DNA from: a virus
DNA: 35,430 nt
Virus record (IMG/VR): IMGVR_UViG_3300046011_007439
Location: 1 to 35,430 of that record
Direction: 5' to 3' (one strand)
Part shown: piece by piece, positions 3,111 to 15,221 of the stretch
Numbering within the stretch: position 1 is the stretch's first letter
How the letters are laid out: every line of letters starts with the position of its first letter
Notes under the pieces: generated by a model
What the model saw: only the letters and a program-made list of their open reading frames with translations
The model's database searches: none
What the model was told of the DNA's origin: nothing
Made by a program: the position numbers and the translations under genes

Positions 3111-3533
3111 TTAAATCTTCCAGGCGTAAGCCACCTGATTGAGCGGGATGGTCATGAGCCCAGCCGGAGCGGGGAACGCGGCGCGGTGATCGACCACGAG
3201 GCCGATGCACAGCCGCGAATAGGCCCCGACGTGCGCCGCCACCATATCGCCCCGGCTGGCCATGCGGACGGGTATCTTGGCGAACCCATGCTCGGCCATT
3301 CGGTCGCCAACGAAGGATGCCAGGCTGAAACCGTGCCCCACGATCCGCGCGGCACCCAGCGCCGTCGTGTATTTGCCTCGGATTCCGACGGCGAGGTCGA
3401 TGCCGTGAAGCTCACGCACCCAGTCGGCGGCGAACAGGCAACAGTCATGCGCGCCCCACGCAAAGGGCGTCGACTGCCGATCCTGCACAAAGCGCCACAA
3501 TAGCGCCGGCCAATTATCGGGGCGCGTCTTCAT
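3111..3533 (-). CDS. Tail assembly protein with NlpC/P60-like Cys motif (DUF6950-like)
   Basis: A 140-aa protein that fits the DUF6950 type of phage proteins. The N-terminus has PFAWGAHDCCLFAADWV, the F.WG..DC cysteine motif of NlpC/P60-like peptidases. A downstream GDMVAAHV segment and a HRAAF segment could supply the His/polar partners. It lies just before the gpJ-like gene, the slot of lambda gpK, so it probably acts in tail-tip assembly or local peptidoglycan cleavage at infection. The start overlaps the stop of the upstream gene (ATGA at 3530-3533). The family assignment is by motif only. Confidence 0.8.
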   Translation of the reverse strand: MKTRPDNWPALLWRFVQDRQSTPFAWGAHDCCLFAADWVRELHGIDLAVGIRGKYTTALGAARIVGHGFSLASFVGDRMAEHGFAKIPVRMASRGDMVAAHVGAYSRLCIGLVVDHRAAFPAPAGLMTIPLNQVAYAWKI

Positions 3534-4108
3534 GCGGATTTAGGCAGCGGACGGCCCCAGTAAATCGTCTTATCCTGCAATCCCGCCACGTATTCGAGGC
3601 CGAGGTCGCCCGGGTAATCCATCTGTTGATCGATGTCGGTGTAGCGGCGCTCACGCGGACGCCCGAGGTCAATCAGGTTGTTTTCGAGCGTGAGCTTGAG
3701 CGTCCCCGACTCGCCGCCGTCGTCCGTGCTCATGACGTCCATGCGGCCGGCGAAGATCTGGACAGGGTCGGCGATCAGTTGCGCCGAAGAATTAAGGAAC
3801 CCCAGCCAAAGACGCCCCGGGCGTTGCTGGTAATTTTCAGAGAATGCCAAGGATAGGATATCGGACGGAATGCCCACCAAGCTCAGGGTCAGGCCCCGGG
3901 CGGAAACATCGCTCGTCTCCTCAATTTCGGAGACCCGCCCAAGCGTGGCCACGCCGGAAAAGTCGCGCCCGCTCCAAGTCAGCGTGCCGTAGCCACTCCA
4001 CACCCGCACCGGGGCGGTGGGGAACTCCAGTTCGCACAGCAGCACCGGACAGGTCTCGGTCGCGATCGCGGCGGCTTTGGTGGCAGGTGTGATGATGCGC
4101 GTACTCAT
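3530..4108 (-). CDS. Minor tail (distal tail / hub) protein, DUF2163-like
   Basis: A 192-aa protein. The frame is open further upstream, but the extra N-terminus is out-of-frame translation of the next gene, so the ATG at 4108 (MSTRIITPATK) is chosen; it lies 5 bp after the upstream stop. It resembles phage minor tail proteins with the pattern GRVSEIEETSDVSARGL, then IFAGRMDVM, ENNLIDLGR, RRYTDIDQQ and a C-terminal IYWGRPLP. Such proteins lie between tape measure and tip protein and probably form part of the distal tail or hub. Assignment is by pattern recognition; the structural role is inferred. Confidence 0.75.
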   Translation of the reverse strand: MSTRIITPATKAAAIATETCPVLLCELEFPTAPVRVWSGYGTLTWSGRDFSGVATLGRVSEIEETSDVSARGLTLSLVGIPSDILSLAFSENYQQRPGRLWLGFLNSSAQLIADPVQIFAGRMDVMSTDDGGESGTLKLTLENNLIDLGRPRERRYTDIDQQMDYPGDLGLEYVAGLQDKTIYWGRPLPKSA

Positions 4109-4113
4109 AGCGG

Positions 4114-4728
4114 TTAGTTCGCGTAGGTGGTGGCCGTGCTGGAGCCGACCGCATCGGCAAAGCTCAGGGTCAGCCCATAGCGACGGGCCAAGTCGATGTC
4201 CCAGGACACCGCCGAGTCGGAGAGCATGAACAGCCCGCGTGGGCTGTTGTAGGTGACCGCCGTGCCGCTGGCATGCGCCGCCCGCAGACGCGGGAACACC
4301 TGCACACTGGTGGCCGAATCCACGAAAATCACCTTGTGCAGCGTGCCCGCGATCTGGAGCCAATCGCCCACGGCAAAGGTGCCTGTGCCTCCGGCGAGCG
4401 GCAACGTGATCGAGCCCGCAACCGCACCGGCGCCCACAGTGACGACGCCAGCCACGGAGCCGCGGGGGAGCGGATTGGCAAAGTCACCCAGCCATACCGT
4501 GCCGCGCCCTGCGGAGAGCAGCCAGGCCACGAGATCCTCGCCGTCGACTCGCTTGAGCGGGGCGATTTTATAGGTCAACTCCAAGCGTTCGCCCGGATGG
4601 TGGTAGCGTTGCACCGCATAGCTGAAGGGTGAAATTGCCGACGCGGTCGCACGGCGGGCAAGCCACGAGATTTGCGTGGTCTTGGCACTGAGGGCCGTGG
4701 GGGCGGCGAGCGGGAATGTGATCGGCAT
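4114..4728 (-). CDS. Tail protein of unknown role between tape measure and tip genes
   Basis: A 204-aa protein starting MPITFPLAAPTAL. It is mostly beta-prone with no membrane segment. A central Gly/Val-rich part (residues about 95-130) looks like a beta-sandwich or insertion domain; a WLLSAGRGTVWLGDF segment precedes it and SWDIDLARRYGLTLSFA follows. It lies in the lambda gpM/gpL-like slot just after the tape measure gene, so a distal-tail role is likely. I do not recognise a named family. Confidence 0.7.
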   Translation of the reverse strand: MPITFPLAAPTALSAKTTQISWLARRATASAISPFSYAVQRYHHPGERLELTYKIAPLKRVDGEDLVAWLLSAGRGTVWLGDFANPLPRGSVAGVVTVGAGAVAGSITLPLAGGTGTFAVGDWLQIAGTLHKVIFVDSATSVQVFPRLRAAHASGTAVTYNSPRGLFMLSDSAVSWDIDLARRYGLTLSFADAVGSSTATTYAN

Positions 4729-4752
4729 GGCGAGCGGGTGGCGGTTTTAGGG

Positions 4753-6519
4753 TTAAGCGTAGGCGCGGCGGTAAGATCCACCCCGGCGCACGCTGTCGCT
4801 GACGGCCTCTTTGATTTGTTTGATCATCACCGGCATCTGCGCCGAAAGCTCCGAGCGGGTGACGCCATTGGTGAAGTGCAGGTTAATCACCTGCGTGTCC
4901 CCGCCACCGCCGCCACCGGACGAAGCGGCGTCCATGGACTGCGCAGTGACATCGGCCGGCGTGATGGTGCCGCCACCGCCCGGGTTAAAGATTTCGGGGC
5001 CCTCTTCGCCCACGAGGTAAGGCTTGGAGCCGTCGCGGTAACCGCCCTCAGCTGCCGGGGCACCGAACAGCCCGGGCATACCCGAAGCGCTGGAGATGGC
5101 GCGCATGAGCGGGATGACGATCTGGGCACGGATCAGGGCGGCAACCAGGTCGCGCATGATCGCGGTCCCGAGCTCCTTCATGCCGAGTTTGCCGGTCATG
5201 ACCATATCGGTGAGTGCACCGGTGAGGTGGCCCTCGATCTGATTGGCGCAGTCGGCAAACGCCTTCTGAAGCGGGTTGAGTGACTTGCGCAGCTTCTCGA
5301 TGCGCTCGGTCTCGGTGGCATCGGCGAGCGCCTTGCCGACGCGCGCGTAGGTGTCGGCGGTGAGGTTGCCCGCCGCCTGGAGTTCGGCGGCGATCTTCAG
5401 GTTCTCCTGTGCCTTTTCCACGGGGGTGGCGTAGGCGTCGGTCATCGCCTTGCCCGCATCGATGCTTGCCTTGGTCTGGGCCTCGATGTCCTGCGAAACA
5501 CTCGCCCCCACGCGCTTGGCGTCGGCGTTGAGCTTCTTGGTGAACTCCATTTCATCGGCAAACAGCTTGCCGTGGAGTTTGCGCTGAGCATCGAGCCGCT
5601 CCTGATCGCGGGCCTTGGCAGCGGCTGCATCATAAGCCGCAGCACGCGCAGCGGCGGCCGGATCTGGTGCGGCAACTGCCTCCATGCTGGCAGGAGCGCC
5701 CGCAACCGCTCCCGTTGCAGTGACTGGAGCGGTGCCCGCCAGTGTACCACGCATGGCGATGATCGCCGCATTATAGGGGGCAAGCGCCTTGTCGAGAATA
5801 CCGCTGTTCAACACCTTGGCGGTGCCTAGTGAGGCCATGTACTTGAGCGCCTCCGCCATGCGTGTGAGTTTGTCGCCCGCATCATCCAAGGTCTTCAGCT
5901 GCGCATCATCGAGCCGGATCTTCTTGGTCGACTCAGCCAGCGAGTCGTAGCCCTGCTCGCTCAGTTGCTTGAGTGTCGCGATCAGCTTGGGTGCATTCTT
6001 CGCCCCAAAAATATCCATCGCCGCATTGAGCGCTGCCTGCCGATCGCTCGCCATGTTGATGCGGCTGGCGATCAACTCAAACTGACGCTCGGGGGCGAGC
6101 GCCTGAAGCCCCGCAGCGGAGAGGTTCAGCTTTGCGAGGCTTGCCGTCATGCCCTCGTTTCCATCGCGTGCATCCTGCACGCTTTGGCGCATCTTCACCA
6201 TGGCCTTGCTGACCTCCTCCATGGAGACGCCGGAATCCATCGCCGCCAAGCTGAGCACTTGGAAGGCCTCGGTGCTCATGTCGGCCTGCGCGGACAAGTC
6301 GGTGATCTTTGAGCCGAGGTCGATTCCGATCTTGGCCACGAAGGCCAGCGCGCCAGCCGCTACCGCCACGCCGGCAAAGGCGGTCTTCATCGCGTCCAGC
6401 GAGGGCTGGATTTTCTTAGTCTGAATCTCGATGGAGCGGAGCTCCTGATTGACCGCTTGAAATCCCTTGGTTTCGGCGAGCGCCTTGAGGATGACTGATA
6501 CTTTGATTTGGCTGGCCAT
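4753..6519 (-). CDS. Tail tape measure protein
   Basis: A 588-aa protein that sets tail length and is probably ejected with the DNA. It is helical and Ala/Lys/Glu-rich, with a hydrophobic stretch near residues 50-66 (VAVAAGALAFVAKIGIDLG). The C-terminus has the lambda-type tape-measure signature: DLVAALIRAQIVIPLMRAI, then the typical YLVGEEGPEIFNPGGGG loop. It is the longest gene of the tail core and follows the tail chaperones, the standard order. At roughly 0.15 nm per residue a tail near 90 nm is expected (inference from known phages). It ends with Tyr/Arg-rich GGSYRRAYA. Confidence 0.93.
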   Translation of the reverse strand: MASQIKVSVILKALAETKGFQAVNQELRSIEIQTKKIQPSLDAMKTAFAGVAVAAGALAFVAKIGIDLGSKITDLSAQADMSTEAFQVLSLAAMDSGVSMEEVSKAMVKMRQSVQDARDGNEGMTASLAKLNLSAAGLQALAPERQFELIASRINMASDRQAALNAAMDIFGAKNAPKLIATLKQLSEQGYDSLAESTKKIRLDDAQLKTLDDAGDKLTRMAEALKYMASLGTAKVLNSGILDKALAPYNAAIIAMRGTLAGTAPVTATGAVAGAPASMEAVAAPDPAAAARAAAYDAAAAKARDQERLDAQRKLHGKLFADEMEFTKKLNADAKRVGASVSQDIEAQTKASIDAGKAMTDAYATPVEKAQENLKIAAELQAAGNLTADTYARVGKALADATETERIEKLRKSLNPLQKAFADCANQIEGHLTGALTDMVMTGKLGMKELGTAIMRDLVAALIRAQIVIPLMRAISSASGMPGLFGAPAAEGGYRDGSKPYLVGEEGPEIFNPGGGGTITPADVTAQSMDAASSGGGGGGDTQVINLHFTNGVTRSELSAQMPVMIKQIKEAVSDSVRRGGSYRRAYA

Positions 6520-6521
6520 GG

Positions 6522-6995
6522 TTATTTTTTAGCCGCTCGGTTTGCCTTGGCCGTGGCCTTGATGACCGCGGCGTTCACTTCGGCGGCGAAGCCCGCCTCG
6601 ATCTCGCTCATGCTCTCAGCCAGCGCAGGCCGCGCAAACGGGCGAGCGCTCACGTGCTTGCTGCCGAACTCGACCACGTGGGCGTAGGCCGATGCACGGG
6701 TGCGCACTTGGCGCTTGGTGCCGTCGGGCTCGGTCTGCATCACCACCACCCGCTTGCCGCTGGGGCGGATGTTGGCGGTCGCCTCGCCGGCACGGTCCAC
6801 CTTGACCGTCACGAAGATCGAATCGGCGAGCAGTCCGGAGTCCTTGTTTCTCCCGGCATTCTGCTTTTCGCGAAACATCACCGGACCGGCCGCAGTGGTG
6901 AGCGCCTTCTTCAAGATCCTGCGCTGCAAGTCCAGGTTCAGCGACGACATCGCCTCAAGTGCACCGGCAAAGCCCTCTGTTTTTATTTCGAGCAT
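6522..6995 (-). CDS. HK97 gp10-like tail/head-tail completion protein
   Basis: A 157-aa protein resembling the HK97 gp10 family: a helical N-terminus (ALEAMSSLNLDLQRRILKKAL), a TAAGPVMFREKQNAG segment, a basic beta core, YAHVVEFGSKHVSARPFARPAL and a helical Lys/Ala tail. In many siphoviruses this family joins head and tail or completes the tail and is encoded before the tail tube gene. Here it lies between the tail chaperones and the tape measure. Its start overlaps the end of the frameshifted chaperone reading frame by 13 bp. Confidence 0.83.
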   Translation of the reverse strand: MLEIKTEGFAGALEAMSSLNLDLQRRILKKALTTAAGPVMFREKQNAGRNKDSGLLADSIFVTVKVDRAGEATANIRPSGKRVVVMQTEPDGTKRQVRTRASAYAHVVEFGSKHVSARPFARPALAESMSEIEAGFAAEVNAAVIKATAKANRAAKK

Positions 6996-7578
6996 GGTTT
7001 TTCGGTTTTGGGGAAGGCGGCGCGGAATTCGGCCATGATCTGGGCGGGGGTCTTTTTGCGCTTAGGCCGAGGCATAAAGTCGGCCGAGGTGTAGTGCTGG
7101 CGGTTGGATTTTCTCAGGCCGTGCAAAGAGCACTCCCAAGCGTAGCGCTTCGCCTCTTTCCTGACGGCGGCCTCCTCATAGCAGCGCCACTCCGAAGCGG
7201 TGAGGGCGAGCAGTTCACCCTCACCGAGCTGAATGCCGAGATCTACGCGGGCGTAGGCGAGGAACTCGGCGCGGCTTTTTTTGCCTTGGTCTCGGCAGCA
7301 GCCTCGAAGGCGGCACCGATGGCCGAAGCCACCCGTGCCAGCGCCTCATCGTCGGCGTCGAGTGCCTCCACGAGATCGGCAGGGGTGACGTAGCCAGCCG
7401 ATTCCGGCAGCATCGCCCACGCAAAATCGAACATCGCACGCATGGAGCGGGCGGGATCGGTCAGCGCGGCGATTGCCGGGGGGTTGGCCAGCCCTTGCAG
7501 CCGGTAATGGGCTGCAAGGTTCCAGCGCAGCGGGTGGGCGATTTCCGCGATGATGAGGGTGACGGCGGGGGTGCTCAT
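6983..7578 (-). CDS. Tail assembly chaperone, long form made by -1 frameshift
   Basis: A -1 slip on the A7 run at 7276-7282 joins codons 1-101 of the short form to a second open frame that runs to TAA at 6983-6985. The predicted fusion is 198 aa. The extension begins SRAEFLAYARVDLG, continues through LLALTASEWRCYEEAAVRKE, and ends with a basic PRPKRKKTPAQIMAEF segment. That second frame has no good start of its own and is coherent protein, which supports a fused product like lambda gpG-T. The end overlaps the start of the gp10-like gene by 13 bp. Frameshift efficiency cannot be read from sequence. Confidence 0.85.
7235..7270 (-). promoter_or_regulatory. Frameshift-stimulating nested hairpin
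   Basis: The minus-strand RNA can form an outer 6-bp stem (GCCGAG at 7270-7265 with CTCGGC at 7240-7235). Inside it is a 5-bp stem (CTACG at 7256-7252 with CGTAG at 7247-7243, loop CCCG). The outer stem starts 5 nt after the slippery run, the usual spacing for -1 frameshift stimulators. The zero-frame TAG lies within the inner stem. Confidence 0.75.
7243..7578 (-). CDS. Tail assembly chaperone, short (zero-frame) form
   Basis: A 111-aa protein directly after the tail tube gene and before the tape measure, the slot of lambda gpG. It is helical throughout: an N-terminal helix (VTLIIAEIAHPLRWNLAAHY), a middle part with DPARSMRAMFDFAWAMLPES, and an Ala/Lys-rich C-terminus. The zero-frame stop (7243-7245) comes soon after a run of seven A residues at which a -1 shift would add a second domain. 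Short and long products together normally guide tail tube polymerisation on the tape measure (family knowledge). Confidence 0.88.
   Translation of the reverse strand: MSTPAVTLIIAEIAHPLRWNLAAHYRLQGLANPPAIAALTDPARSMRAMFDFAWAMLPESAGYVTPADLVEALDADDEALARVASAIGAAFEAAAETKAKKAAPSSSPTPA
7276..7282 (-). promoter_or_regulatory. -1 ribosomal frameshift slippery heptamer A_AAA_AAA
   Basis: On the minus strand the codons read GCA AAA AAA GCC, giving a perfect A AAA AAA heptamer in the zero frame. It lies ten codons before the zero-frame stop, and the stimulatory hairpin begins 5 nt downstream. Confidence 0.88.
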
Positions 7579-7587
7579 GTCTCAGGA

Positions 7588-8004
7588 TCAGGAACCAGGA
7601 GCGACGCCGGTGGGCTTGAGTTTGAACTTCTGGGTGTCCTTACCCTCGATCCCGAAGTTGTCGTTTTCGACTGACTCGACGATGGCGTTAAAAATGACGT
7701 CATCCGTGGTGGTGACGCGGCCCGGAGTAACCACCTTGAACTTCATCGAAGTACCCACGCCAGCGCGCAGCGCATCTTGGCCGGCATCGGTGGCGATCAC
7801 CAGGATCGAGCCGGAGCACTCGCTCCACTCTTTTAAGCCGGAGGGCTCAAACTCCTTGATGCCGGAAGCGGAGCCGTGAGTGGTCACATCGATGGGCGAC
7901 GTGGCACTGAGTACGGGAGGAACGATATCGAGCAGGCCGTTGATGGGAACGTAGGCAGCGGTCACGAAGACCGAGAGTGTGACGCCGAAGGTTTTTGAAG
8001 GCAT
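7588..8004 (-). CDS. Major tail (tube) protein
   Basis: A 138-aa beta-rich protein (MPSKTFGVTLSVFVTAAYVPI...) directly before the frameshifted chaperone genes and after the tail terminator candidate. That is the conserved place of the tail tube subunit. Features include DVTTHGSASGIKEFEPSGL and a core with TSMKFKVVTPGRVTTTDDVIFNAIVE, which resembles phage tube proteins with a long beta hairpin. It is smaller than lambda gpV (about 246 aa), so it is a single-domain tube protein without an Ig-like C-terminal domain. A single tube gene without a sheath gene supports a non-contractile tail. Confidence 0.85.
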   Translation of the reverse strand: MPSKTFGVTLSVFVTAAYVPINGLLDIVPPVLSATSPIDVTTHGSASGIKEFEPSGLKEWSECSGSILVIATDAGQDALRAGVGTSMKFKVVTPGRVTTTDDVIFNAIVESVENDNFGIEGKDTQKFKLKPTGVAPGS

Positions 8005-8786: not shown

Positions 8787-9000
8787 GGTGATGGGAGGTG
8801 CGAATGCGGAGCTCGATCACCTGCGCCTCGACGGCGACCAGGCGGGTGCGCACTTCGAGGATGTCGCGCGCGTGGCCTTGGCCGTAGACGCTCTCCACAG
8901 CGAGCCCCTTGGTCAGCTGGTGCACGCTGTAGAGCGTCCACCCCGAGAGCGGGATAATGATGCTGTTGATGGCAATAAGAAGGAGTTCCGTTTGGGTCAT
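8773..9000 (-). CDS. Small membrane protein with coiled coil, i-spanin or holin-accessory candidate
   Basis: A 75-aa protein with one N-terminal membrane helix (LLLIAINSIIIPLSGWTLYSV, residues about 6-26) and a helical, probably coiled-coil tail (RDILEVRTRLVAVEAQVIELRIRT). One TM plus periplasmic coiled coil is the layout of inner-membrane spanins; XhlA-like holin partners look similar. It is coupled to the lipoprotein gene before it by ATGA (8997-9000). The lysis role rests on context and topology, not on a recognised family. Confidence 0.7.
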   Translation of the reverse strand: MTQTELLLIAINSIIIPLSGWTLYSVHQLTKGLAVESVYGQGHARDILEVRTRLVAVEAQVIELRIRTSHHHESR

Positions 9001-9203
9001 TTGCGGAGGGCTTCGAGGTCGGCGATTGTGTTGAGTGCTTCGGTTGTGAAATTGGGGGCGCAGCGCATGGCGTCCTCGTAATCAGGCATGGCCTTGAGGT
9101 GCGGCAGGTTGCTCGGCGCCGTGCAGCCCGCGGTGAGGGCAAGTGCGAGGGCACACCCAAGGGCTCGAAGTGATACGGATGCGGTCGGCTTCATTGTCGG
9201 CAT
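8997..9203 (-). CDS. Small lipoprotein, outer-membrane spanin (Rz1-like) candidate
   Basis: A 68-aa precursor. The signal sequence ends in the lipobox LTAGC (Cys27), leaving a mature chain of about 42 residues with Pro near the N-terminus. The ATG at 9203 is given; the ATG at 9194 (MKPTASVSLRALG) would give a more typical basic n-region. The 5' part overlaps another reading frame (9082-9321) by 122 bp, and the stop overlaps the next gene (ATGA). A short lipoprotein next to single-TM proteins in a lysis-like cassette suggests an o-spanin, which would fuse inner and outer membranes at lysis. Confidence 0.75.
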   Translation of the reverse strand: MPTMKPTASVSLRALGCALALALTAGCTAPSNLPHLKAMPDYEDAMRCAPNFTTEALNTIADLEALRK

Positions 9204-9321
9204 GGGCTTTGGCGCGGCGCCCTTCGGCTAGCTGTGCCCCGACCAGCTCAGCCAACTGCGCGGCGGCCGGGACCGCTTTGCAGATGGCCAGGATGATCGA
9301 GGCGAGCGCGGCTAGGTTCAT
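9082..9321 (-). CDS. Small hydrophobic/amphipathic protein overlapping the lipoprotein gene
   Basis: A 79-aa frame with a hydrophobic N-terminus (LAALASIILAICKAV), then an Ala/Lys/Glu-rich part (LAEGRRAKAHADNEADRIR). The ATG overlaps the stop of the holin candidate (ATGA, 9318-9321), which supports real translation. The last ~40 codons lie in the other frame of the lipoprotein gene, so the Pro/Cys/His-rich C-terminus may be under little constraint of its own. Overlapping TM-protein and lipoprotein frames recall Rz/Rz1. Function otherwise unknown. Confidence 0.6.
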   Translation of the reverse strand: MNLAALASIILAICKAVPAAAQLAELVGAQLAEGRRAKAHADNEADRIRITSSPWVCPRTCPHRGLHGAEQPAAPQGHA

Positions 9322-9704
9322 TTGGCGGAAGGTGCGGCCGGGGGGATGATCTTAATCGAGAGCACCCAATCGAGCAGGTAGGCCACCTTGCTGCCAACCG
9401 GGCTGTGGAACCAGGCCACCAGTCGATCAAGCATCGCGTTGTCATTGGTGCCGGGAGTCAGGTCGATCACCCAGTGCACGAGGCTGAAGGCCGGCTTGGC
9501 CCAGATGCGGGCGCTGCCGATCACCGTGATCACCGTGGCAATCCACGGGTGCGACTGGGCCAGCGAGAGCAACAGGTTGAGGATGATGTTTTGCGCTTCG
9601 ACCGGCAGGACGGCAGAGGCATCTCCGGCGGCAATTGATTGGGCACTGGCTACGGTGGCCAGTCCGAGGACAGCGAGAGCAAAAAGGGCGAATTTGGATT
9701 TCAT
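9318..9704 (-). CDS. Holin-like membrane protein with N-terminal signal sequence
   Basis: A 128-aa protein. The chosen ATG (9704) gives MKSKFALFALAVLGL, a signal-like helix with a possible cleavage site ASA-QS near residue 22. Two more hydrophobic segments follow (about 52-67, HPWIATVITVIGSARIW, and 104-121, KVAYLLDWVLSIKII). A Pro-rich tail with one Lys ends it. Three potential membrane segments next to a hydrolase gene fit a holin, possibly one with an N-terminal signal-anchor (pinholin/SAR-like). No family was recognised. The frame extends upstream but only as a shadow of the lipoprotein gene. Confidence 0.68.
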   Translation of the reverse strand: MKSKFALFALAVLGLATVASAQSIAAGDASAVLPVEAQNIILNLLLSLAQSHPWIATVITVIGSARIWAKPAFSLVHWVIDLTPGTNDNAMLDRLVAWFHSPVGSKVAYLLDWVLSIKIIPPAAPSAK

Positions 9705-9844: not shown

Positions 9845-10024
9845 CTACAGGCTGAGATAAACGATCTGCCCATCGACAACGCCCACCGGCTGGGTGGTCG
9901 CCTCGTAGCGGCATGGAGGAGGGGTGGGTAACGTGACCGGCTGCGGGGTTGTGCAACCGGTGAGGATCACGAGGCCGAGCAGCAGCACGGCGATGAGGGA
10001 GAGGCGGAGCTGGCGGGATTTCAT
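9845..10024 (-). CDS. Small Pro-rich lipoprotein, second o-spanin candidate
   Basis: A 59-aa precursor (MKSRQLRLSLIAVLLLGL...) with a basic n-region, a strong hydrophobic core and lipobox LTGC (Cys24). The mature part is 36 residues and Pro-rich (TTPQPVTLPTPPPC), typical of Rz1-type outer-membrane spanins. The start overlaps the stop of the hydrolase gene (ATGA, 10021-10024). The longer upstream frame is a shadow of that gene. Confidence 0.75.
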   Translation of the reverse strand: MKSRQLRLSLIAVLLLGLVILTGCTTPQPVTLPTPPPCRYEATTQPVGVVDGQIVYLSL

Positions 10025-10615: not shown

Positions 10616-12271
10616 TTAATTTTTGAGGTACGAACTCGACGCAAGGAATGCCGTCTGGAGCGTCGCGCCGTTGACGAAAACCACGCGGTGGTAACGGGTG
10701 GTGATCAGCACCACAGCCTCAGCGACGCCGTCGGCGGCAACGGCAATGTCAGCGGTGGCGCGCCGCCAGGTGGTGCCGTCGGTCGAATGATCCACACGCA
10801 ACGTCCCAGCGTGCGAAGCGTAGGCACGCGCAACGAAGCGGGTATTTGAAATAGTCGAGCCGGCATCACGGCTGGCCCCCGTATAGGTGGCACCGGCGGC
10901 GAGGACGGTGGACGACTCGGAGTTTACCGTGTTCGAAGTGCCGCCGAGCGTGACCGTCGTGGTAGGAGCGGAGGCCACGCGCACATCCATGTAGGCGGCA
11001 GCGCCTGACGCATCGACTCCGGAGATCTGCACCTTGTTGATGCCAATATCGAGGGTACGGAAAAACCCGAGGCTGCAGCGGGTCGTGCTCGCCGGGGCGG
11101 TAACACCGTTATGAACCGAGAAGAAGAAATAGAGCCGCACGTCCTCTGGAGGCAGCGAGTCGATCGCGGTGCCGCGAGGATTCCAGGCAAGGCCGTTGGT
11201 CTGGCTGGCAGGTGTAGCGTCGGAAAAAGCCTCGATCTGGCAGTCCCCATAAAACTGGTTGACCACACCCAGCGGGGCAATGTCGGTGGTCGCCGTGACC
11301 GATAACGCACCGCTGGACCAGCCCTTGCGCTGAGTATCCTTGATGATCGAGGTTGCGCTGGTGCCGTTGCGGATGAACGCGACGTAGTTCCAGCCATACG
11401 CGGTCAGCGTTCCCGAGGCGCTGCCCGTCCACGCCTTGCCGGTCATTGTCAACGTGAGGGTGCCGCTCGTTGCCCCCGCGTTTATACACGTGAACGTCGT
11501 GGTCGCTAGATTGTTGGCGTTGCTCTGCGTCAGCAGCGAAACCACACCGTTGACGATGGCAGCCGTATCACTGGAAGCCGACACCGTCGCGGCCTCGGCA
11601 ATCGAGAAGATCGGCGCGCCGCCCAAAAACGTAACCGTTGCGGTGGTCGTGCTGCGCGTCCAGCTGCACGCGAAGACCGGCGAGAATGTGATATTGTTGC
11701 CCGAGACTGCGGTGATGACATAGCGGCCAGGGTGCGACAGCGCCGCGCCTTGGATACCGCCGAGCATCATGGCCTGGCCGATATTCTCAGCCGTAAAGCC
11801 GTGGCCGGCAGGCAGGGTCACGGTGATGAGGAGGCCGGTGGCATCGGTGGTAAACGGGACGCCTTCACCAATGAGATCGGCGAGCATCGCAACGCAGTGT
11901 TGGTTCACGATATGCTGGCTGCGGCTCATGCGGAACCGCGCCATGTGCGCCCCATTGGCGAAACCAACGGAGCGGAACAGCGTCTCAGCGCCGGGATTGG
12001 TGCCGGAGTCGATGTTGAGGTTAGAGTACGCCTGACCAGCGGTCATTCCCGAGCCGATCGCCCCAAGCTGCACCACCTCCTCGGAGATGATGCCCGAGCC
12101 GGTGCGCGTGAAAGAGCAGTCAATGACATTGGCGCTGGCTTGCCGGGTAGAAAGGGCCCCATCAACCAACGCGGGCGGCAACTGCGCGGTGGTGATTGTC
12201 GGCTGGTAGGTCGCCCACGAGGTGGCGAGCAGCTGCGAGAAAAGAGCGATGAGCAGGAGGAATCGTTTCAT
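10616..12271 (-). CDS. Large beta-rich fibre-like protein with Sec signal peptide
   Basis: A 551-aa protein starting MKRFLLLIALFSQLLATSWAT, a typical Sec signal peptide; the longer upstream frame is a shadow of the neighbour. The rest is Thr/Ser/Gly/Ala-rich and beta-prone, with no further TM. Features include NITFSPVFACSW, RLYFFFSVHNGV and a C-terminal beta domain ending ASSSYLKN. It is encoded 5 bp after another signal-bearing fibre-like gene, inside the structural region. It could be a fibre, a virion decoration or an exported surface protein. No family recognised; the signal peptide is unusual for a virion protein. Confidence 0.75.
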   Translation of the reverse strand: MKRFLLLIALFSQLLATSWATYQPTITTAQLPPALVDGALSTRQASANVIDCSFTRTGSGIISEEVVQLGAIGSGMTAGQAYSNLNIDSGTNPGAETLFRSVGFANGAHMARFRMSRSQHIVNQHCVAMLADLIGEGVPFTTDATGLLITVTLPAGHGFTAENIGQAMMLGGIQGAALSHPGRYVITAVSGNNITFSPVFACSWTRSTTTATVTFLGGAPIFSIAEAATVSASSDTAAIVNGVVSLLTQSNANNLATTTFTCINAGATSGTLTLTMTGKAWTGSASGTLTAYGWNYVAFIRNGTSATSIIKDTQRKGWSSGALSVTATTDIAPLGVVNQFYGDCQIEAFSDATPASQTNGLAWNPRGTAIDSLPPEDVRLYFFFSVHNGVTAPASTTRCSLGFFRTLDIGINKVQISGVDASGAAAYMDVRVASAPTTTVTLGGTSNTVNSESSTVLAAGATYTGASRDAGSTISNTRFVARAYASHAGTLRVDHSTDGTTWRRATADIAVAADGVAEAVVLITTRYHRVVFVNGATLQTAFLASSSYLKN

Positions 12272-12276
12272 GAGTT

Positions 12277-14523
12277 TCAGTAGAGATACCAGTTGGCGGA
12301 GGCGTCGGAGGTGATCGACCAGGACGCCCCCGTGGTGATCAGGGCAGAGGTGTCGCCCTCGAAGAGATCGGACCCGGCGCGGGAAAGGGTGACGGTGCCG
12401 CTGGTGCGGTTGATGATTTCGAGCTGCACAGGACGGGGGCTGGCGGCGTTGGCGGCGGGGAGCGTGAGGGTGATGCCGCCAGCTCCGGTGCACACGATCA
12501 CGGCATCGGCGGCAGTGAGGGCGCCGGAGGTTGTGACCACGCGGGAGGTGGCACGAGGCTGGCTGGCTGCGATCGCGGCGGCCTGCGCAGCGGCGGAGGA
12601 TCCGAGTGTTTCGTACCCAGCTAGCGCAGTGGCCAGAGAGGTTGCGTCAGGCATGGCCACCCAGCCGGTGTTACCGGTGCCAGTGACTTTGGAGTAAACG
12701 GCGGTCCCCGCTGCGCCGTCCATGCGCAGGAAAATTGAGCTTACTGGGGCGGTGGTTACGCCTTCAGGCGAGCCGGAGCCGCATAGGATGTTGGCAGCGT
12801 CTAAACCAACGAGACCGTTGAGAGTGATGACGCCACCTTTACCTCCTGCGGTAGTGCCTGATGCGGATGCTCCGTTAAGGGTAAGCGTGCCTCCGGAGCC
12901 GCCAGCGCCTCCGTTAGCGGAGGCGGTATCGTTAGCACCTGCGCCACCGCTTAACCCGATGAACCCAGTGTTCCCGCCACTGCCTCCAATAAAACCATTG
13001 GATGCGCCACCACCGTTACCGGCCAAGGCTATAATTGCGGTTACAGCGCTACCTCCGGCACCACCAGTCCCCCCAGCACCGCTGGAAGTACCGCCCGCGC
13101 CACCTGAGGTGGTTATTAACTGCGCGGCATTACCCCCCGCACCACCATTCCCAATTCCTCCAGCGCCTCCGTTACCGGTGGTGACTGAGATTAAACTATT
13201 GGTACCAGACAATCCGCCGCCAGCGCCCCCGCTACCAGTGGACCCCCCCGCTCCTCCGCTACCGCCTACCACGCGGAAAAAACCGGATGAGAAGCCACTG
13301 AATATAGATCCGGCGTTACCCCCAGAGCCTCCTGAGGAGCCTCCTGCCCCACCAGCGCCACCTTGTATGCTTAGTAGATTAGCTGATGATGATGTACCAA
13401 TACTGCCCCCGCTTCCACCAGCACCTCCAGCACCACCAGCACCACCAATACCAGCGGTTATGGCGATCATACGAGCCTGTCCACCGGTTAAAACAGAACC
13501 ACCAGCTCCGCCTGCTCCACCAGCTCCCGCTGGACCTCCTGAACTCCCGGATATGGTTATCAACCCTGTGTTTCCAGTTACCAGTGCCGTGCCTCCAGCC
13601 CCCCCAGAAAAGTTGCCATTGGCTCCTCCTCCACTACCCCCTAGAAATTGGAATGTTGGCCGTGAAGCGATAAACCCACCAGCCCCACCATTACCTGTTC
13701 CACTCGCGGCGTTGGCCCCACCGTTACCCGTTATGGCGGAGTTCCAGAAGGCGGTGAGGAATCCCCCCGCTGCGCCGACAGTACCGCTGCCTCCTAACGC
13801 TGGTCCAGGAGTCCCAGCTTGCGCTATGGACCACGGAATGCACTGGGTCCTCCATGCTCCAACAGCGTATTGCCGCAGCATCATTAGCTGGGTTGAAGAC
13901 AGACCAGCAGTTGGGGATGTAGTCGTAAGGCCACCCAAAACAACAGACCCATTTACAAGAGTAACTTGGTAGGAGAATCCAGGTGCTGGTGAGCTTGGGT
14001 CTGTAAAGTTAACGGTAATTCCTGTTCCATCTACATAGTATTTAGCCCCGTTTGCTGCAGGCGTGATCGTCTGCGTGGTGGTAACTACGATCTCAAGCGG
14101 CTGGTAGGTCGTCGCCGCCGTGGCCGCAGGAAGCGCACCGACGATGCGCGAGTCATCGCCTGCGGCGACGGTGCCGGTCGTGGTGCCGATGTTGAGCGAT
14201 GCGGCTCCGCCGAGGGATGGCTTGCCAGTGAGATCTGAGTAGGCGCCCGTAGTTGCAACGGTTGCCAGCGATGCCGCGTTTAATTTGGCATCGAGGGCGG
14301 CCTGCAAGCCCGAGGTCGCGGCGATGGGCAGCGCGGCGGCCGGGACGGTCAGCGTGCCACCGTTGGCGACGGTCAGGGTTTTGCCGCTGGGCACGGTCAA
14401 ATCCTCGGTAAGCGCATTGCCCGAGATCGTTTTGTTTACGGTCTTGGTGGCCGTGGTTGTCTGCGAATTTGCAGTGATGGCCAACAGCAGCGACCCGATA
14501 GCAAGTAGGCGGAGGCGTTTCAT
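12277..14523 (-). CDS. Tail-fibre/adhesin-like protein with Sec signal and polyglycine repeats
   Basis: A 748-aa protein. Residues 1-20 (MKRLRLLAIGSLLLAITANS) form a signal peptide. Residues 75-140 carry tail-fibre-like text (TTGAYSDLTGKPSLGG, TVAAGDDSRIVGALP). Residues about 250-570 are a Gly-rich region of GGAGG blocks separated by short hydrophobic or polar loops, resembling the polyglycine-II sandwich of phage adhesins such as S16 gp38. The C-terminus (ITLTLPAANAA... to WYLY) looks like a beta-rich fibre tip. The start at 14523 shares one base with the upstream stop (TGATG). Likely receptor binding; export is unexplained. Confidence 0.78.
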   Translation of the reverse strand: MKRLRLLAIGSLLLAITANSQTTTATKTVNKTISGNALTEDLTVPSGKTLTVANGGTLTVPAAALPIAATSGLQAALDAKLNAASLATVATTGAYSDLTGKPSLGGAASLNIGTTTGTVAAGDDSRIVGALPAATAATTYQPLEIVVTTTQTITPAANGAKYYVDGTGITVNFTDPSSPAPGFSYQVTLVNGSVVLGGLTTTSPTAGLSSTQLMMLRQYAVGAWRTQCIPWSIAQAGTPGPALGGSGTVGAAGGFLTAFWNSAITGNGGANAASGTGNGGAGGFIASRPTFQFLGGSGGGANGNFSGGAGGTALVTGNTGLITISGSSGGPAGAGGAGGAGGSVLTGGQARMIAITAGIGGAGGAGGAGGSGGSIGTSSSANLLSIQGGAGGAGGSSGGSGGNAGSIFSGFSSGFFRVVGGSGGAGGSTGSGGAGGGLSGTNSLISVTTGNGGAGGIGNGGAGGNAAQLITTSGGAGGTSSGAGGTGGAGGSAVTAIIALAGNGGGASNGFIGGSGGNTGFIGLSGGAGANDTASANGGAGGSGGTLTLNGASASGTTAGGKGGVITLNGLVGLDAANILCGSGSPEGVTTAPVSSIFLRMDGAAGTAVYSKVTGTGNTGWVAMPDATSLATALAGYETLGSSAAAQAAAIAASQPRATSRVVTTSGALTAADAVIVCTGAGGITLTLPAANAASPRPVQLEIINRTSGTVTLSRAGSDLFEGDTSALITTGASWSITSDASANWYLY
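12814..13790 (-). repeat. Gly-rich (GGAGG)n coding repeat region
   Basis: About 320 codons of repeated GGxGG blocks alternating with 6-12-residue loops such as ARMIAITAGI, SANLLSIQ, SGFFRVV and NSLISVTT. Glycine codons vary (GGT, GGA, GGC mixed), so this is protein-level repetition more than a perfect DNA repeat. Base composition is visibly less GC-rich than in the neighbouring genes. Confidence 0.8.
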
Positions 14524-15221
14524 CAGTTGAGGCGGACCCAGATTTTGAGGTTGGTGACGGCGTTTGCGTCGTCGGGTAGGACGAGCCCGCCATCGGCATT
14601 TTCTGCGGTGACTCCGTCCCATGTTTGCAGCTGCCACGTGGAGAGCGCGCCAGCCTGCGAAACGAGGCACGGGGTCATGAGCACCAGCCCAGTGGTTGCC
14701 ACGCCGTCGAGGCTGGTGGCAGTGCCGCCGGTCAGGGCCGAGCGGAAGATAAGGCGCTCTGCCAGTGCGGCAGTAAGAGCGGAGGTAGATTCACCGGGTG
14801 CCGGTTCGTCGCCGGTGATGTAGTCATTATCGCAGCGCAGCGGAACGGCCTCAGAGCTCCAACCAGTGCTGTGGATTACCTCGGCCGCCAGCTGCACGAA
14901 ATCCGGCTCGGTTGGTGGCAGACCAATTCCGGCGAAGAGGTCGGCAAGCGCCTCGGTGTTAAGCGAAATTGTGCCTGTGTAAGTGGTAGAATCTAGCGTG
15001 AGGGCAGCCGTTGCAACCAGTGCGCCAGCATACAGCCCGCGGGCTTTGATCCCGATCGACAAGGTTCCGCCTGAAAAGGTGGCCGGCACGCCGGCGGAAT
15101 AGAGCACCACCTCAACGGCGACGGTGTCGCGGCGCTTGAGGATGGCCGGAATGAGCGGGTAGCCATCGGCCCCGATCCCGATCATGCGCCCGGTGTCCTT
15201 GTCGAATTTGAGCGTGAGCAT
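14523..15221 (-). CDS. BppU-like baseplate/receptor-binding-associated protein (tentative)
   Basis: A 232-aa protein. The N-terminal half (MLTLKFDKDTGRMIGIGADG, then LKRRDTVAVEVVLYSAGVPA and IGIKARGLYAGALVATAAL) reads like the N-terminal beta domain of BppU/DUF2479-type baseplate proteins. The C-terminal half has a helix, then GVVLMTPCLV-like strands and WQLQTWDGVTAENADGGLV, ending LKIWVRLN. It begins the fibre block and is fused by TGATG to the polyglycine fibre gene. The role in anchoring fibres is inferred. Confidence 0.6.
   Translation of the reverse strand: MLTLKFDKDTGRMIGIGADGYPLIPAILKRRDTVAVEVVLYSAGVPATFSGGTLSIGIKARGLYAGALVATAALTLDSTTYTGTISLNTEALADLFAGIGLPPTEPDFVQLAAEVIHSTGWSSEAVPLRCDNDYITGDEPAPGESTSALTAALAERLIFRSALTGGTATSLDGVATTGLVLMTPCLVSQAGALSTWQLQTWDGVTAENADGGLVLPDDANAVTNLKIWVRLN

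Follow-up and report, generated by a model that had tools for sequence, protein, structure and literature searches.

A phage tail-fibre-like protein with a conserved predicted signal peptide and a paired candidate virion adaptor

On the accepted view, tailed phages assemble their virions in the cytoplasm. What a fibre-like protein that begins with a Sec signal peptide does in such a phage is the question raised by a gene in the window analysed here, a complete IMG/VR record of 35,430 bases. The phage is a tailed one, with recognisable terminase, portal, capsid, adaptors, tape measure and lambda-J-like tail protein.

The fibre gene and its glycine-rich shaft

The gene lies at 12277..14523, where the earlier note on this DNA had correctly placed it, and is on the minus strand, with its ATG at 14523 and its stop at 12279-12277. 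It encodes a distal tail-fibre-like protein of 748 amino acids with a predicted N-terminal Sec signal peptide. The ATG shares one base with the stop of the upstream gene P0004 (TGATG) and no further in-frame ATG occurs before codon 214, which makes the start firm. A false start from gene calling was rejected because of this overlap, the long ATG-free stretch and the lack of second-position changes in the signal codons described below.

Five segments can be distinguished along the protein, all on the minus strand. The predicted signal peptide (residues 1-20; 14464..14523) is followed by a conserved mature N-terminal module, the proposed docking end (residues 21-58, Q..TKTVNKTISGNALTEDLTVPSGKTLTVANGGTL; 14350..14463). 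After a region of fibre-like sequence comes a glycine-rich block of about residues 241-570 (12814..13803), then a tail fibre/spike domain of the form GSGSPEG...GNTGW, which is C-terminal in many fibres (residues 580-623; 12655..12786), and finally a C-terminal domain conserved in close relatives with other shafts (residues 656-748; 12280..12558). The protein itself falls into no family in Pfam, NCBIfam or PHROGs. Residues 579-640 nonetheless have matches in 224 phage records (best E 1e-7), several of them annotated as tail fibre, tail spike or tail protein, which bears out an earlier impression of tail-fibre-like text, and relatives of the fibre match PHROG tail families. The protein has domains common to known fibres and spikes, adjoins tail and adaptor genes, and combines a conserved N-terminal end with a variable distal part, as a member of the tail fibres should. 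By eye, no C-terminal outer-membrane secretion signal was recognised on it.

Glycine makes up 36% of residues 241-600. The GGxGG blocks to which the earlier note had drawn attention are well beyond chance, with 24 motifs (overlaps counted); 2000 shuffles of this region gave 5.7 on average and never more than 17. They form 13 glycine-rich stretches with variable segments between. The block is missing from the closest relatives (L012, L013/L015), which keep the signal peptide, and it is therefore an exchangeable shaft; it is also missing from L016 and others. L013/L015 still keep the C-terminal domain, and close relatives of the fibre carry quite different shafts. The only other copy of the fibre, in L002, is identical over 5,628 bases.

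In line with the comparison to S16 drawn in the earlier note, the protein might be a polyglycine-II sandwich adhesin of the S16 gp38 type, whether or not it is exported. The composition and the 13 stretches with variable segments between recall gp38, which has 10 glycine-rich motifs (PMC6851490), but 36% glycine over 360 residues compares with >50% over 73 in gp38. No solved gp38 was matched by sequence, a PDB search with the fibre returning no gp38 chain and only chance matches to glycine-rich linkers. Sequence similarity to gp38, as a protein of this type might show, was not found. Confidence in the predicted structure is low, with a pLDDT of 40 for the whole fibre and about 34 over the block. 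A polyglycine-II fold is for these reasons a tentative and rather unlikely reading; it concerns the fold of the shaft and does not compete with export.

Conservation of the signal peptide

In the N-terminus, MKRLRLLAIGSLLLAITANS|Q, a basic n-region leads into an h-region free of charges, and small residues form the cleavage motif, with predicted cleavage at S20|Q21. This N-terminus passes the home-made scorer by which signal peptides were called throughout this wholly computational analysis, in agreement with the Sec signal peptide already proposed for it. An initial protein search found relatives in other viral contigs, all of which start with a signal peptide that runs straight into the conserved module. 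The wider set comprises 38 loci, some of them near-identical contigs, and yields 29 distinct N-termini, those from bacterial genomes included. The same layout, an n-h-c architecture with small residues at -3 and -1 as in signal peptidase I substrates of the Sec route, is found in 28/29, as is the motif [AGS]|Q. When these 28 are aligned at the predicted cut, Lys or Arg stands near the start in 28/28 and an acidic residue in one, with A, L, V or G at -3, A, G or S at -1, and Gln throughout at +1; because a Gln was used to position the cut, it is the -3/-1 pattern that counts as independent. The h-regions are short. The signal sequences have diverged, yet the n/h/AxA layout is kept, and in L075, L094/L095, L103 and L105, where the mature N-terminus does not visibly resemble the module, the signal peptide and the Gln are still retained. 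Homologues starting downstream of the signal, which the earlier note had said would count against its reading, were looked for, and none occurs among the separate-gene homologues.

Substitutions within the signal codons point in the same direction. The second codon position sets hydrophobicity. Four close pairs differ at 25 bases, of which 13 fall at first, 0 at second and 12 at third positions, and this comparison, of small numbers and few pairs, fits selection for a hydrophobic segment and not for one sequence.

Applied to 101 other genes of at least 200 amino acids in these loci, the same scorer gave 10 positives, namely the L096 fibre, eight genes directly downstream of a fibre and in the same cassette, and one adaptor (L090). 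Outside the fibre cassette, 1/92 genes of at least 200 amino acids scores, against 29/29 fibres (Fisher, 4e-27, a value overstated because the sequences are related). Among homologous tail proteins from phages of other hosts, the signal peptide is absent in 10/10, eight of them with the end domain (from Klebsiella, Acinetobacter, Escherichia and Pseudomonas phages) and two P0003-like (from Microcystis and Sphingomonas phages). Taken together, these sequence patterns make export and cleavage of the fibre very probable, and a signal peptide on a phage fibre gives no grounds for dismissal as a false prediction or a host gene.

Gln at +1 of signal peptidase substrates is known in Bacteroidetes as the Q-rule (PMC5837995). 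As the cause of the Gln seen here it was rejected, only 1/22 predicted signal peptides having it in the host sample, a small one from a single Verrucomicrobiaceae MAG.

The next gene, P0003 (10616..12271, minus strand; 551 amino acids), also carries a signal peptide and would be the second exported protein of the cassette. In L013/L030 this signal peptide is conserved, with 86% identity, whereas the homologues from Microcystis and Sphingomonas phages have none. The C-terminal part of P0003 is XepA-like (XepA of PBSX; NCBIfam E 7e-8, below cut-off). Elsewhere, a second or third predicted exported protein follows the signal-peptide fibre at L070:5321, L071:6625, L081:5702, L082:6225, L089:5998, L091:6241, L096:6117, L102:4976, and L113:11787 and 12701. 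Such regularity suggests that the whole distal cassette may be exported. A long exported-looking protein with a possible protease-like motif also lies 3' of the fibre cassette at L013:8522-10240, and one is found in L012. Further along the minus strand of the window are a holin-like membrane protein with a signal-peptide-like start (9318-9704; VASAQ), to which a gene at L003:8289-8771 is similar, and two small lipoprotein-like ORFs at 8997-9203 and 9845-10024 (lipoboxes LTAGC and ILTGC), possibly outer-membrane spanins.

The putative upstream adaptor and its pairing with the fibre

P0004 (14523..15221, minus strand) encodes 232 amino acids without a signal peptide, and its stop is the one that overlaps the fibre start. 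A model built from 18 relatives (pLDDT 82) gives it an N-terminal beta domain (residues 1-131; 14829..15221, minus strand) like that of TP901-1 BppU and of phage neck and baseplate proteins, as would be expected of a BppU-type adaptor. Its structural matches include the Bas63 connector (Z 9.2), the Sf14 neck (Z 9.1), the baseplates of TP901-1 (4v96, Z 8.3) and 80alpha (Z 8.1), and the BppU N-domain itself (3uh8; Z 8.1 over 101 residues at 2.8 A). A Z near 8 is moderate, and the six best matches are all phage virion proteins. On this model, P0004 is a putative virion adaptor with a phage-adaptor fold. The C-terminal domain (residues 152-232; 14526..14768, minus strand) is conserved beside signal-peptide fibre genes elsewhere; the adaptor domain is absent from the phage collection and no cultured member was found. 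In L026 the adaptor opens instead with a segment that matches the anchor ends of tail-fibre families (phrog_1640, E 3e-28), and the signal-peptide fibre of that locus has a GDSL-lipase domain, as in tailspikes.

Loci were chosen by homology to the C-terminal domain of P0004, blind to the fibre N-terminus. In the first such search the next gene was a signal-peptide fibre in 17/17 loci, and in the broader one it was directly next in 31/38. The remainder comprise L096, with the signal-peptide fibre one gene further on; L090, which ends too early for the fibre to be read; L097-L100, in which a single polypeptide lacking a signal peptide comprises both adaptor and fibre; and L104, with the adaptor domain and no fibre. 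Wherever a separate gene is readable, a signal-peptide fibre follows in 32/33 loci, in one of them a gene later. The outer ends of the two proteins vary, and the C-terminal end of the adaptor and the N-terminal end of the fibre are conserved. In several loci the fibre is the sole fibre-like gene seen beside the adaptor.

Other arrangements of the pair were also seen. In L097-L100 (about 3400-4940) the adaptor C-domain runs in frame into the fibre end, a natural single-chain form. In L111 it sits inside a signal-peptide tailspike, and its role may therefore be that of a spacer, not a dock. The pair lies among head and neck genes in the window (10616-15221), near the capsid gene in L010 and L011 (about 5300-8000), and after the tail genes in L003 (5106-7623). 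Its role may differ between phages, as a neck fibre in some and at the tail tip in others.

Several phages of this family are integrated in Verrucomicrobiota genomes. The pair, or such a signal-peptide fibre, is present in a Verrucomicrobiaceae MAG (L034) and in the Verrucomicrobiota genomes G216, G328, G170, G308 and G337; a scan of the genome collection gave nothing with a 4-sequence alignment and one MAG with a 12-sequence alignment. In L113 the order is tape measure, tail genes, adaptor, fibre, two more exported proteins and then a gene that by eye resembles an integrase. From the hosts of these relatives, the window phage probably infects a member of the Verrucomicrobiota. The signal-peptide fibre is not universal there. 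The cultured verrucophage P8625 was reported without any signal peptides (PMC4642752), and four TerL-anchored Verrucomicrobiota prophage regions have no signal-peptide fibre in the stretches covered. Among such regions, L130 has a single-chain gene of 912 amino acids without a signal peptide. Together with P8625, the single-chain relatives that lack the signal peptide (L097-L100, L130) indicate that export is not required for such fibres generally.

A proposed split fibre and its alternatives

The explanation we favour, and consider probable, is that the tail fibre is split in two: its distal half would leave the cytoplasm by Sec, be matured, and join virions that already carry the adaptor, either at lysis or after it. 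It builds on features that were computed directly, namely the layout and conservation of the signal peptide, the pairing with the adaptor, the predicted adaptor fold and the swapping of shafts. From these we infer export, cleavage, docking of the two proteins, assembly outside the cytoplasm and a role in binding. In a tail (or neck) fibre made of two proteins, the fibre gene would encode the distal half, which faces the receptor, and P0004 the cytosolic adaptor, its BppU-like N-domain seated in the virion and its conserved C-domain presenting a docking site. Once the distal half had been exported by Sec to the periplasm, a cut by signal peptidase I would expose the N-terminal Gln and the conserved N-terminal module. 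The mature fibre would then meet adaptor-bearing virions when the cell lyses, or later, and the glycine-rich block would be one interchangeable shaft and binding region. The earlier note had left the choice between an exported surface protein, a fibre assembled after export and a signal-like start used otherwise. The second is now the best supported, because the signal peptide is conserved in diverged relatives and the gene is paired with a virion-adaptor-like one. The interpretation in that note holds in part.

An exported protein need not reach the virion. The fibre could instead remain in the periplasm or at the surface to block or modify the receptor, whether for superinfection exclusion, as a decoy or to modify the envelope, with a binding domain borrowed from tail fibres. 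The signal peptide is the feature under clearest selection, more exported genes follow the fibre in several loci, the window gene adjoins lysis-type genes, and phage lambda supplies a precedent in Lom, an exported protein whose gene lies among those for the tail (PMC12309495). The tie to a virion-adaptor-type gene in 31 loci, the fusion of adaptor and fibre into one chain in four, shaft swapping typical of receptor-binding fibres, and several loci in which no other fibre-like gene is seen beside the adaptor all speak against this, and the non-virion variants are, even taken jointly, unlikely. The conserved ends that would face each other, the variable outer ends and the single-chain forms that join both proteins in cis favour a virion fibre over a free exported protein; on these sequence grounds the fibre, if exported, would quite likely join virions.

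Alternatively, the hydrophobic start might stay uncleaved, either anchoring the protein in the membrane or holding the fibre in the virion as a hydrophobic helix, with no export at all. A hydrophobic N-terminus could in principle do so, and the AF2 model has a helix at residues 2-18. However, the short h-regions, the small -3/-1 residues and the Gln at +1 in nearly all N-termini fit poorly, as a diverging buried structural helix would not be expected to retain a cleavage motif, and this reading is improbable. Finally, the combination of a signal peptide with glycine-rich composition, common in cell-surface proteins, might suggest a host surface protein or moron acquired by this phage alone and unrelated to the virion, but the phage tail domains and a family that spans different phage types with the same adaptor neighbour leave this highly improbable, and synteny largely refutes it.

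For the split fibre, a broader proposition follows on which we judge the case evenly balanced: that at least some tailed phages of Verrucomicrobiota make capsid, tail and adaptor in the cytoplasm and the fibre in the periplasm via Sec, the parts being joined at or after lysis. A search of open-access papers gave no description of tailed-phage fibres with conserved signal peptides, though one may exist all the same. A conserved signal peptide on a distal fibre implies an assembly route unlike the textbook, wholly cytoplasmic one, and would make phage host recognition dependent on the Sec pathway and periplasm of the host. If true, free fibres could be shared or exchanged after lysis between virions from the same cell or neighbourhood.

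Several known systems resemble parts of this arrangement. S16 gp38 likewise has many glycine-rich motifs with variable segments between, while the fibre described here has no sequence match to it, a lower glycine fraction, another gene arrangement and a signal peptide. Fibres and spikes of Acinetobacter phage Loki and of Klebsiella and Escherichia phages carry the same GSGSPEG...GNTGW domain at or near the C-terminus; in contrast, 0/8 of the examined fibres with this domain have a signal peptide, and their N-termini look like those of ordinary virion proteins. The pIII adhesin of filamentous phages is likewise synthesised with a Sec signal peptide and joins the virion outside the cytoplasm, although filamentous extrusion differs from the building of a tailed virion and no homology is claimed. 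With BppU and BppL of TP901-1 no sequence similarity was found, the present fibre is much longer and modular, and BppL is not known to carry a signal peptide. The plan is nevertheless alike: an upper protein bound to the virion, whose N-domain is of the same type, is followed by a separate receptor-binding protein.
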